Positions 42,880 to 47,495 of a stretch of 64,000 nucleotides of DNA are shown piece after piece. The DNA is taken from contig WARS01000071.1 of the NCBI GenBank assembly GCA_008933995.1, positions 6,334,350-6,398,349 on the forward strand. Direction: 5' to 3'. The DNA comes from Datnioides undecimradiatus (taxonomy: Eukaryota > Chordata > Actinopteri > Lobotiformes > Datnioididae). The notes below the pieces were generated by a model. That model saw only the letters and a program-made list of their open reading frames with translations. It did no database searches and had not been told where the DNA came from. The stretch's first letter is position 1. Each line of letters opens with the position of its first letter. The translations under genes were made by a program, and so were the position numbers.

Positions 42880-45800
42880 TTAGGGATAGTCACAGCAGTC
42901 GCAGCTCTTTTTGAAAACCAAACCTGATTGGCAGTATTGGATGTAGAAAATCCCATTGGCACAGTTATAGAAAGAACTTGGGTCTGAAGGGTTGCGGTAA
43001 CGACCATCACTCTTTCCATTGCAGGGGTTTCCAAGAAGGTCCGTTGTGGTTGTGGTAGGTGGAGTGGTTGTAGTTGTGGTAGGGGGTGTTGTTGTGGTTG
43101 TGGTAGGTGGAGTAGTTGTAGTTGTGGTAGGGGGTGTTGTTGTGGTTGTGGTGGGTGGAGTTGTTGTGGTTGTGGTAGGCAGAGTAGTTGTGGTTGTGGT
43201 AGGGGGTGTTGTTGTGGTTGTGGTGGGTGGAGTAGTTGTAGTCGTGGTAGGGGGTGTTGTTGTGGTTGTGGTGGGTGGAGTTGTTGTGGTTGTGGTAGGT
43301 GGTTCTGTTGTGGTTGTGGTAGGTGGAGTAGTTGTGGTTGTGGTAGGTGGAGTGGTTGTAGTTGTAGTGGGTGGTTCTGTTGTGGTTGTGGTAGGCGGAG
43401 TAGTTGTGGTTGTGGTAGGTGGAGTAGTTGTAGTCGTGGTAGGGGGTGTTGTTGTGGTTGTGGTGGGTGGAGTTGTTGTGGATGTGGTAGGTGGTTCTGT
43501 TGTGGTTGTGGTAGGTGGAGTAGTTGTGGTTATGGTAGGTGGAGTGGTTGTAGTTGTAGTGGGTGGTTCTGTTGTGGTCGTGGTGGGTGGATTGGTTGTG
43601 GTTGTGGTTGGTGGAGTTGTCGGGGTTGTAGTAGGCGAAGTTGTTGTCGTGTTTGTAGGGGTCATTGTCGTCGTAGTAGTGGGTATTGTTATGACTGTTG
43701 TGAAAGTTGTGGTGTCTGTTGTAGGCGGAGTTGTTGTGGTCATTGTGGGGAGAGCTGTTGTGGTACTGGTTGGAGGAGCTGTGGTGGTCAAAGTTGGACT
43801 TCCAGAGGTATTGCTCGGAAAATCTGAAAGAGGGAGAGTCAATAATAGTTAATAATAATTATAATAATAGTTATAACAGTCAGTTCCTTAATTTTACTGA
43901 GACCAAATCATGTTTCATTTGCACTCTACATAACAAAAGTAATAAAGCCAATAAAAGATGGTATCATTGCTGGTGGTAATTACACAGAAGAAATGCTTTA
44001 TAGTTAACAGTTTAATGACAACAAACCATTTAAGCTAGGGGTGGGCAATTATTTTTTCCAGAGGGCCACATGAGAAAGCTGAGCTGTGTTAGAGGGCCGA
44101 ACCAACAATAATCTGAACTTAACTATGTTCAATATTAACTTTCTCCAACTGTAAAGGCAAGAAAATTATATAATTTTGATTACGCTACTGGTAATCAAAA
44201 GACTAAGGATATTCTGTTACAATAAAGATATATATACAAGTCATAAACAGGAAAACAATAATTACGTCAGTATTTCATTTTATTTTTAACACATAACTCA
44301 GAAATACTGAAAAGCAGATGTGGCCCGCGGACCGTAAAATGCCCAGGTCTGATTTAAGCAAATGCAAACTAAACTAAATAACGGTGGTGTTGAACTATCA
44401 CATGTAACAAAATGTATACATGGACTTAAAACGTCTGTACTAGCTGCTTTAACAAAATTAAAAATTAATTGATTTTGCAATGTACAGACTGATTTGGCCC
44501 ATGGATGATCTGCAGCAATTATGTTATAAGTGAATCCCTGCTAAAAACTACAAGCCCATTACAGGATAGCATAGTGACTTGTTTTGCTTACCTGGAACAA
44601 GGAGAGTATGCAGGTGGCTGATGAAGGGGTAGCTGCCCTGTTTACAGAACTGTCCACTGAAGTCATCCAGGTCCAGCGACCAGACAACGGCTCCTCCAAA
44701 GTTGCCAGCTTTTAGGTAACTGATCTGAGAGGACGAGAATGGAAACACTTAGACAGCTGAAGTCATGTCAAAAACAATATCTTATTTGACTAAACTGGTG
44801 TACAAATAGGCATTTTCTAAAGAAGTTACTGAGGTATAGTTTGAATTAAACAGGTAGTTACCTTGGTATTGAGGCTGTCTGCATTATCAAATCCAACCCA
44901 CTGATTTTCTGTGGTGGCATATGGAACTTTCTGATCAGGAATCACCTCAACTGTAACCCCTTCAAGATACAGGCAAGTCTGAAAACAAGGGTCAATTGTT
45001 ACATTTAGATCCTATCTTTTAATATATACAGAAATTACTGTTGTTTTTGTAGGGAATAAAAGTATACCATGGTAAGGCTGTTGATTTGAATTAATTATTG
45101 TCACAGTTTTACCTCATAAGAGGCCCAGAATCCATCTTCACCAGTGTAGCATCCATCTTCACCGGGACCATTGGCTGGTGCTCCAACACTGGTGGATGCA
45201 GACGAGAGGTTAAAAGCGCGCCCGTATGCTGCTAGCCCAAAATTTAGTTTCTGTGCTGGTGCCCCTTGGTCTTTCCAATACTGCATGGCGGAGTCCTAAA
45301 ATGGGGAAGGAAAAACTATTAGGGTGAAAGGAAATCTCTAAATAGACAGGTGTCCAGTTGAAATATGAATTCAGTGCACTTGCAGTGTTCAAGTAGATGT
45401 TGTTTCCACTGTCTTGGGATCCCCGGAATAAGGGGCTGTGATGTCCTGTGGTATTCTCCCAAGGACCGTGAAAGTCGAATGTCAGCACGTTAATGAAATC
45501 TAGTTGCCTGATAAAATGCAGAGGAGATCACGTTCACGATCATGACAGCAGCTAATGATGGCTAAAATGTCAATAAACATATGAATTTGTCTTTACGTTG
45601 CAATCTTTGCGACTTCGTAACTGGCATCAATGGTTGGTCTTTCACCAGAGACGGTTGCACTGATGATCAATCTGTTGCGATTTGCTGTTCTCTCCTCTGC
45701 CTCAAAGGCGGTGTTTAGCTCCTATACAGCACAGATACATGGTTTAGTCTTGGTTGAGTATAGAGTATTATGTATTTATACATAGCATACAGTGTGGCAT

Positions 45801-47495
45801 GTTTACAGTGTCCCAGAAAATTCAGGATCTGACCTTGCACAGTTCTGTGAATCTCATCTTGTCTTCTGTTTGGCTTCCAGGTTGTCCGGGGAACCTCCAG
45901 TCAAGGTTTAAGCCATCAAATCCATAGGCTCTCAGCAGTGTGACAGCAGACGTAACAAACGTTGATATGTTTGATGGCGCTGACACCATTGTACTGAATC
46001 TGGTTTGAACAAAACAGTGCTGTCAAGAAGACACTCACACAATGCATTTAAGGCCTCATTGTGCATTTAACTGCACAAAGAGCAACACAATCGGCATTGC
46101 AAGGACAAATACACAGCTTCAGGCAGGTGTGGTTACAATGTTTTTCTCTAGTAAATATCATTCATGTAATTTTAATACGTAGTTACTGACCTCTTTATTG
46201 AGAACAATGAATTTTGCAAAAGTGTTAGTCAACATGTAGGGGTAAAATAAAAATGCATGTTAAATTGTCTTATTATGGGTTTTTAAGGCTCAATTTGGAT
46301 GCACTGAGCTTGCATTAGGTTTAATTCAAATGTCCAATATATTGAAGCATAAACAGATCTATTTAATTTAATCAATTAATTATTTAATTTAAAAGAAGTT
46401 AAAGTAACACTAATTTGGGTTAAGTGAATTAATGCAAAACCCAAAACAATTTTTTGTATATACCAAGATAAGAGTATTGACCACCTCTGCTGTTACTCTC
46501 ACATAATGTAATAAAGGTATCATAAATATTTCTGCAGGACAGAATATGTTAAAGTATGCGTTATTGTCATATAGTTGCTAATGTAACCTTGAAATGAAGT
46601 TTTTTTTAGTAACTTACTTTTGTGTGTTAAACTTCAAGCCACCAACTGCCAACAGGGTTTTGAGCTGCGGGTTTCTGTGGGAGAATAAAAGTTAAGTCAT
46701 GCTAATTCAACAAAACACAAATTTCAACGTAATACTTCTAGAACTATTTACAGGCCAAAGCACTGACCTTGATTTGAGTGCATTAAAGGACTGATAGCCT
46801 TGTGTGTCAGCTGCACTTCCGGGGACCAGCTCATTTTGGCTGTTGATATCAGCAAAGGCGTAGATCAGATGGGTGCACTGGTTCGGATCGATATCTGAAA
46901 CTGTGAACTTCCCATCGTCCGCTCTGTTTTCAGCTAAGCTGTCATAGTAACACACCAGCATGTAGGAAGAGGCTGAGGGATGAGAGGAAATCATGATGTT
47001 TTAATAAGCTTTGGAAGAAATTATCCCCCAAATTTTTCTTATTCCAATAATTATCAGTTACTCTTGGACATTATTTATCTGTCAGTAAGTGTTGATTATG
47101 GTTTATATTTGTCATAAACTTACCCAAGCTGGACATGATCAAGCAGAGACCTACAAACAGAGACTTAATTAGTGACATGTTAAAAAGAACAAAGCTTAAC
47201 ATGTCAGTTCATCCAAATCACAAAACCAAGTCCACTGGATTCCCTTTAATGAGATATTGCACTCTCAGGTTTCTGCAGCTGCCCCTGCATATTGTAAATG
47301 AATATAAAAATAAATGTTGCTTTCTCATTGTAATCTAGAAACAAAAACATGGGTAAACCAAACAAAACTTATCAGCCTGGCTCAATATCACTGGAGGTAA
47401 GAGAGAAAATCCAATTTGGGTGAACTGACCCTGTTTTAAGGAACATTTTGGCTTGATCAGTATGCCTTACCTGCTGCTAAAATGAGCCTGCCCAT
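42880..47495 (-). CDS. Gene D: mucin-like chi-lectin (inactive GH18 + long Thr/Pro stalk + CBM14)
   Basis: Seen: eleven exons (47471-47495, 47124-47150, 46768-46972, 46618-46674, 45834-45999, 45597-45721, 45384-45507, 45113-45295, 44862-44978, 44592-44724, 42880-43823) give 701 residues. Order: signal peptide ([16 protein letters not shown]), GH18 domain ([16 protein letters not shown] to [10 protein letters not shown]), about 250 residues of [12 protein letters not shown] repeats, and a six-Cys CBM14 ending CDCCDYP. The catalytic motif is DGLNLDWR: the acid/base Glu is Arg and one Asp is Asn. GGWNFGT is GGLKFNT, and MTYD is LTFD. Known: loss of this Glu abolishes GH18 catalysis, as in chi-lectins and OVGP1. 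The reading frame and splice sites are intact, one donor being GC (45383). Inferred: a secreted, heavily O-glycosylated chitin-binding protein, not an enzyme. Confidence 0.9.
43040..43790 (-). repeat. 24-bp coding minisatellite of the gene D mucin stalk
   Basis: Tandem 24-base units encode the octapeptide PPTTTTTT with variants in which Pro becomes Glu, Asn or Leu at one place ([16 protein letters not shown]). The core is most regular at 43041-43620 and decays towards the GH18 side. Few stops arise on either strand, so the plus strand shows a long Val/Gly frame that is not a gene. Confidence 0.92.
44036..44356. mobile_element. hAT-like MITE in the last intron of gene D
   Basis: The left end TAGGGGTGGGCAATTATTTT and the right end ATGTGGCCCGCGGACCGTAA then AATGCCCAGGTCTGA form imperfect inverted repeats. 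GAGGGCCACATG and AGAGGGCCGAACC lie inside. This resembles a widespread vertebrate hAT-type non-autonomous repeat. Confidence 0.5.

Follow-up and report, generated by a model that had tools for sequence, protein, structure and literature searches.

What can a chitinase gene still encode once its catalytic glutamate has been replaced while its reading frame remains open? The question is raised by a 64-kb stretch of contig WARS01000071.1 from the fish Datnioides undecimradiatus (hereafter the window; the genome amounts to 581 Mb in 497 contigs), and more precisely by gene D, which lies on the minus strand between positions 47495 and 42880 in what is a tandem array of fish-type chitinase genes. 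Upon spliced translation, its 11 exons give 2106 bp and 701 amino acids with no internal stop, and its parts follow one another in the order of a signal-like N-terminus, a GH18 (glycoside hydrolase family 18) domain, a 264-residue Thr/Pro stalk and a chitin-binding domain of the CBM14 type. The explanation that fits best, and to which we give about an even chance, is that gene D encodes a secreted, non-enzymatic chitin-binding glycoprotein, that is, a chitin-tethered mucin-like protein, perhaps of the gut mucus. The features of the gene are as follows.

42880..47495, minus strand: gene D, whole coding span, 11 exons, 701 amino acids
47471..47495, minus strand: exon 1, with the start codon and the beginning of the signal-like N-terminus
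47124..47150, minus strand: exon 2, remainder of the signal-like N-terminus
46768..46972, minus strand: exon 3, N-terminal part of GH18, with Trp31 replaced by Leu
46618..46674, minus strand: exon 4, with Trp99 replaced by Leu (GGLKFN)
45834..45999, minus strand: exon 5, catalytic motif DGLNLDWR
45894..45896, minus strand: AGG (Arg) codon replacing catalytic Glu140
45597..45721, minus strand: exon 6
45384..45507, minus strand: exon 7, LTFD (Met210Leu, Tyr212Phe), followed by a GC-AG intron
45113..45295, minus strand: exon 8
44862..44978, minus strand: exon 9
44592..44724, minus strand: exon 10, end of GH18
42880..43823, minus strand: exon 11, stalk, CBM14 and stop codon
43033..43823, minus strand: Thr/Pro stalk, residues 388-651, with a tandem repeat at 43043-43647
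42883..43032, minus strand: CBM14, six Cys, with Trp465 replaced by Tyr

A preliminary description of the locus had noted the unbroken 701-residue frame, which stands, and intact splicing, which stands in so far as all 11 exons join and nine of the ten introns have GT-AG borders. The exception is intron 7 (GC-AG, donor at 45383), which that description had passed over and whose GC is also present in the neighboring pseudogene, copy C. The Pfam GH18 profile (PF00704) matches residues 23-363 with an E-value of 2.2e-89 and 300.7 bits against a cut-off of 29.6, the CBM_14 profile matches residues 655-701 (E 3.9e-8), and the alignment to human CHIT1 scores 402 bits. A homologue that splices together in full and has its domains in order, gene D is not a chance frame. 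Exons 1 and 2 encode a hydrophobic N-terminus that resembles, by eye, a signal peptide, and candidate exons with the same layout are found upstream of genes A, E and F; the product is very probably secreted. Immediately 5' of the ATG lies a splice-acceptor-like stretch, so that the coding exons may be preceded by an untranslated one.

The active-site residues are numbered here according to CHIT1, on a map made against CHIT1 and AMCase. Gene D carries the changes W31L, W99L, N100K, D136N, E140R, Y141F, M210L and Y212F, and keeps D133, D138, D213, W218, W358, Y27, Y267 and the four disulphide cysteines of GH18. The hallmark of active GH18 chitinases is the DxxDxDxE motif with its proton-donor Glu; gene D reads DGLNLDWR instead, as the preliminary description has it, the Arg codon being AGG at 45894-45896. 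Of the other changes then reported, the conversion of MTYD to LTFD is borne out as Met210Leu and Tyr212Phe, the latter shared with gene A, and the “neighboring Asp” turned into Asn is Asp136, Asp138, the one nearest to the Glu, being intact. Trp31 takes part in the sugar cleft of GH18 proteins. In CHIT1, Tyr212 and Glu140 are described as acting directly in catalysis and Trp99 as a lid (PMC12502790). It is next to certain, from these replacements, that the product of gene D has no chitinase activity, and residual catalysis was rejected on the motif. Since Trp31 and Trp99 are both lost from the cleft, a lectin role of the cleft is unlikely and any binding would fall to CBM14: the GH18 domain is hardly able to cut and probably has a poor grip on sugar.

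An assembly error at the Glu codon, which would have undone this reading, was checked and is ruled out, as the same TGG AGG (Trp-Arg) pair is carried by a second copy in the window. A DNA search with exon 5 of gene D, capable of detecting close copies only and thus picking up neither copies R and C nor the paralogs, hit a single site in the genome, whose sequence is that of the window. The relatives that bear on the origin of the Arg are the following.

30325..34447, minus strand: copy C, a D-type pseudogene whose exon 8 carries a TAG stop and whose exons 6 and 10 are frameshifted, with no stop at the point where the CBM14 of gene D ends
24490..24880, minus strand: copy R, what remains of a D-type copy, namely exon 5 and a portion of exon 6, with TGG AGG (Trp-Arg) kept
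14796..18189, minus strand: gene A, nearest intact relative of gene D, with Glu kept, Asp136Asn, Tyr212Phe, a T-rich linker and CBM14

Copy R lies 21 kb from gene D; over 222 aligned bases, which take in the intron edges, the two differ by 29%. On both sides the flanks of R resemble, in the same linear order, those of D or C, and the exon and its intron edges match too. A single unit thus appears to have been repeated in tandem to give D, C and R. A stretch found upstream of each of them (49175-49463 for D, 35672-35780 for C and 26264-26557 for R, pairwise 72-75% alike) could have been duplicated along with them, perhaps as a distal promoter or an untranslated exon, or could be a repeat. As the Glu-to-Arg change is common to gene D and to the decayed R, it is older than the D/R duplication; the frame of D has remained open while R and C decayed. 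Copy C, as aligned, has ACA (Thr) at the catalytic codon, and its identity to D is patchy (57/57 bases in exon 4, 89/153 in exon 5), suggesting that gene conversion between the two is likely. In a 12-row tree, gene D pairs with gene A with a support of 94/96, just under the bars of 95 and 80 set by the tool, and under the codon model the topology joining D with A and E with F is 31 log units better than both alternatives. Gene A shares D136N and Y212F with gene D and keeps Glu140, Trp31 and Trp99; the Asn and the Phe thus probably came first and the Arg later, and gene A (14796-17940, minus strand) may itself be a weak enzyme on the same path. Gene D stands apart from human CHIT1 and AMCase in this tree, whose deeper forks are weak (51/66) and whose rows do not include OVGP1, and this separation would place it in the fish-specific CHIO group.

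The 264 residues of the stalk comprise 174 Thr, 58 Pro and 6 Ser (68% Ser plus Thr, 22% Pro) and, as in mucin-type domains, form a tandem Ser/Thr/Pro-rich repeat, here with a 24-base unit arrayed over 43043-43647. Among the genes read, no other linker reaches half this length: the longest, that of F, has 109 residues, and those of A and E have 66 and 43 (the last only 33% Thr plus Ser). For six other paralogs, the 38 to 79 open residues preceding the CBM are upper bounds for the linkers, those of the loci L021 and L022 being Gly/Ser-rich. As A, F and pseudogene C have T-rich linkers too, the stalk is best seen as the expansion of an existing linker; the PPTTTTTT tract of about 250 residues first reported is real, and it was not newly gained.

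The CBM14 domain, which had been called intact, keeps its six conserved cysteines and its fold (a structure prediction covering this domain alone has a pLDDT of 89, and Foldseek aligns it to CHIT1 5hbf_A with a TM-score of 0.86) and has undergone three aromatic substitutions, namely Phe419 to Pro, Phe446 to Tyr and Trp465 to Tyr, while the equivalents of Tyr428, Phe437 and Tyr438 are kept. Position 465 is Tyr in D and C and Trp in A, E and F. The substituted Tyr may still be able to stack on a sugar, and the balance tips slightly towards the protein being able to bind chitin.

Is the open frame then maintained by selection, as the preliminary description had supposed? Omega (dN/dS) was fitted with a codon model to the GH18 exons (369 columns); before the fits, copy C was stripped of one stop codon, of exons 5, 6 and 9 and of portions of exons 3 and 10, 212 codons being taken and one masked. 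The D lineage has an omega of 0.492 versus a background of 0.198, significantly below 1 (twice the log-likelihood difference 6.52, p 0.011) and above the background (p 0.0004); that of gene A is raised as well (0.34, p 0.006). Some constraint at the protein level is thereby supported, and for the D lineage it is, by these fits, relaxed but real. In simulations of neutral drift at 0.15 changes per site, a three-point estimate for gene D since the D/R split (0.14 to 0.15 depending on the outgroup), the 437 non-repeat codons stayed free of stops, indels not being counted, in 0.15% of 2000 runs; at a drift of 0.10 this was the case in 0.9% of runs. The stalk provides a separate indication. In a fixed 24-base register and without filtering, minority bases at codon positions 1, 2 and 3 number 6-7, 7 and 47-49 in 24-25 units, and, as the repeats copy each other, distinct variants were counted instead of bases: 11 of 17 or 18 fall at third positions. 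A first count on protein-filtered units was dropped as biased towards silent variants in favor of this unfiltered one; it had put 10 of 13 distinct variants, as tallied by hand, in third positions (minority bases 1, 2 and 38; p 0.0016) without codon 8, and 12 of 17 (p 0.0019) with it. Variation among the repeats modestly favors a constraint on the stalk peptide. All in all, it seems quite likely that gene D is under selection.

Export signal, stalk and anchor are the parts of gene D that have been kept or enlarged, and its product is most simply read as a chitin-tethered mucin-like glycoprotein. In such a protein, the stalk would be densely O-glycosylated in the manner of mucins, CBM14 would anchor the molecule to chitin, and the GH18 domain would persist as a stable non-catalytic cap; acting in the gut lumen, the protein could hydrate, cross-link or shield the chitin of the fish's own barrier or that of its food. 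A role in mucus or in a barrier is, in our judgment, about as probable as its opposite. Family profile searches of the genome score the best candidates only and more genes may exist; the chitin synthase profile has seven matches, with GEDRWLCTLLL in two translated loci (contigs C197 and C198) and QRRRW in one of them, both of which we take to be chitin synthase motifs, neither being seen in the scanned frames of the two loci on C488 or of the one on C7. Gut or skin mucus is proposed as the site because of these chitin-synthase-like exons and because related fish genes are expressed in the gut: the fish-specific CHIO chitinase genes are reported from caeca and midgut, and CHIA genes from the stomach (PMC10234404). 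Chitinous gut membranes have been described in ray-finned fish, with a demonstration in tilapia and staining evidence from zebrafish and trout (PMC6109156).

A stronger version of this reading, in which gene D is the fish counterpart of insect peritrophins, its enzyme killed and its linker stretched so as to structure or shield an endogenous chitinous gut barrier, is put forward tentatively and has the lesser chance. It is suggested by the lack of any CBM14 outside chitinase genes among the best 18 candidates scored, the ten matches all being at chitinase loci. Insect peritrophins and invertebrate intestinal mucins join a mucin-like stretch to CBM14, as gene D does; unlike gene D, they usually possess several CBM14s and no GH18. 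The parallels to OVGP1 and to peritrophic-matrix mucins drawn in the preliminary description are apt as analogies; what it observed on gene D is confirmed, and its interpretation is partly supported.

Several results weigh against a maintained chitin-tethered mucin. Trp465, rated in the literature as key to chitin binding, is Tyr in gene D, and a CHIT1 construct without Trp465 and Asn466 is reported to have no longer bound chitin (PMC4844120). The chitin synthase profile also matches in 4 of 14 bacterial control genomes, so that the point drawn from it depends on the motifs. The repeat test (p 0.008 to 0.014 according to the register) presumes equal chances for the three codon positions, in repeats that copy each other. 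As to the frame itself, the tip of gene D since the D/C split has an omega of 0.39, not significantly below 1 (p 0.19); with C split off, the D/C stem stands at 0.53 (p 0.058 against 1) and C at 0.52 (p 0.30), and part of the lineage with an omega of 0.49 is older than the loss of the Glu. Constraint is hence shown, within the codon model, for the D lineage as a whole and not for its last stretch by itself. With the drift since the D/C split taken as 0.075 and 0.033, a stop-free frame would arise by luck in 3.3% and 20% of cases (P 0.03 to 0.20). The likely gene conversion between D and C blurs these rates and may make their split look too young; it also weakens C as an independent check on selection.

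These figures lend substance to the rival that survives best, namely that gene D is on its way to becoming a pseudogene, an inactive duplicate whose frame happens to be open still and whose stalk grew by replication slippage. Such an origin would agree with the wrecking of two of the three D-type copies (C and R), with an omega more than twice the background, with a tip that does not fall significantly below 1, with the chance of an open frame since the D/C split, and with the loss of several more active-site and cleft residues beyond the Glu. It accords poorly with the lineage omega below 1, with the improbability of an open frame over the whole D/R branch, with the tilt of repeat variation to silent positions, and with the retention of the disulphide cysteines in both domains of gene D; we consider it unlikely, with an appreciable residual chance.

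A second rival turns gene D into a fish chitinase-like lectin or signaling protein of the YKL-40/Ym1 sort, working through its GH18 cleft, for example in immunity. Loss of the catalytic Glu, which gene D shares, is the mark of chitinase-like proteins (chitolectins) and, together with a kept barrel, typifies those of mammals; the same source has chitolectins keeping their oligosaccharide-binding residues (PMC1945033), whereas gene D has lost Trp31 and Trp99 and carries Asn100Lys. Chitinase-like proteins are moreover described as having no C-terminal chitin-binding domain (PMC4373397), and gene D keeps its CBM14; a lectin of this kind is improbable. Still less credit goes to a decoy or protector that competes for chitin with the active-type sisters E and F in the gut contents, its stalk a mere spacer: active-type CBM14-bearing paralogs do adjoin gene D, long linkers are reported in active fish stomach chitinases (PMC4728518) and no point tells directly against it, but it leaves unexplained why a stalk of 264 residues, where the longest linker elsewhere among the genes read has 109, should be under constraint.

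To return to the chitin-tethered mucin-like protein, its parts have separate precedents. The house dust mite allergen Der p 18 resembles gene D in that its GH18 core lacks the catalytic Glu and is accompanied by a linker and a putative CBM14, and is reported mainly from the gut peritrophic matrix, with weak chitin binding; it differs in being an arthropod protein with five of the six CBM cysteines, no long Thr/Pro repeat being mentioned in its description (PMC4993390). Mammalian OVGP1 is likewise a secreted GH18 protein without the catalytic Glu and with a long mucin-like repeat (PMC1945033, PMC6904773). Unlike in gene D, this repeat constitutes the C-terminal region of the protein. We know of no CBM14 that follows it. 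OVGP1, CHI3L1 and CHI3L2 of mammals are listed with Leu or Ile at the site of the catalytic Glu, versus Arg in gene D (PMC1945033). Among fish, one chitinase-like protein each is predicted in zebrafish, gar and medaka (PMC4373397); these and salmon Chia.5 are, like gene D, fish GH18 proteins with a broken catalytic motif (PMC4373397, PMC10234404). Chia.5 differs in that it is of the CHIT1 type, a group with low reported expression, and that its CBM is truncated (PMC10234404); gene D has its CBM14 and groups with gene A. That gene D should be this known dead salmon-type chitinase is unlikely on its pairing (94/96), though the deeper forks are at 51/66. The sardine chitinases SmeChi-1 and -2 share with gene D a GH18 domain, a long linker and a chitin-binding domain; they keep DXDXE and were purified from stomach as active chitinases (PMC4728518). 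A dead GH18 with CBM14 is thus known from mites and a dead GH18 with a mucin repeat from mammals; their combination in a vertebrate appears to be new, no fish gene of this build being named in the top-ranking open-access literature on the subject. Fish chitinase genes are said generally to keep their active motifs, strikingly unlike those of mammals (PMC10234404), and chitinase-like proteins in general to lack a chitin-binding domain (PMC4373397); gene D is an exception to both published rules, as a dead fish-type chitinase with its binding module kept and a long mucin-like stalk. Expression in the gut would make it a candidate for holding mucus on the chitinous membranes of ray-finned fish.

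The other chitinase genes of the genome provide the setting. Twelve chitinase-type copies of exon 5 were read, six in the window (A, C, D, E, F and R) and six elsewhere (L017, L018, two on L019, the second of which is also on L020, L021 and L022). The catalytic Glu is kept in 9 of the 12, the exceptions being D, C and R; leaving aside the wrecked C and R, it is kept in 9 of 10 unbroken-looking chitinase genes, with D as the exception. A further GH18 match on contig C312, outside the clusters, also keeps its Glu (DGINIDIE) and resembles what we take to be chitobiase. At L017:2982-7163 (contig C315, about 21.583-21.587 Mb), a gene with CBM14 reads DGLNLAWEYPA, that is, Asp136Asn and Asp138Ala with the Glu kept; it may be a second crippled chitinase and, on a weak placement (51/66), may be a better counterpart of the broken salmon Chia.5 than gene D. 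The copy at L020:1657-6093 (C315, about 21.609 Mb) keeps the Glu, reads DWEHLG, SVREENDGSQ in exon 4 and KTFD, and has a CBM14 that breaks off; it looks like another chitinase in decay. Gene F (59221-59826, minus strand) is open from exon 10 through its 109-residue T/A/S-rich linker to CBM14 and the stop codon, the last intron of A, D and E having apparently been lost. Contigs C197 and C198 each hold two places matching the chitin synthase profile, at about 9.3 kb and 36.9 kb along the contig, with almost equal spacing on the two contigs; they may represent two haplotypes or a duplication. Within the window, a reverse transcriptase fragment (PF00078; 38221-38829, minus strand) probably stems from a LINE-type (long interspersed nuclear element) element, and the chitinase cluster is flanked by a peptidase M20 exon (PF01546; 7539-7826, plus strand), presumably of PM20D1.

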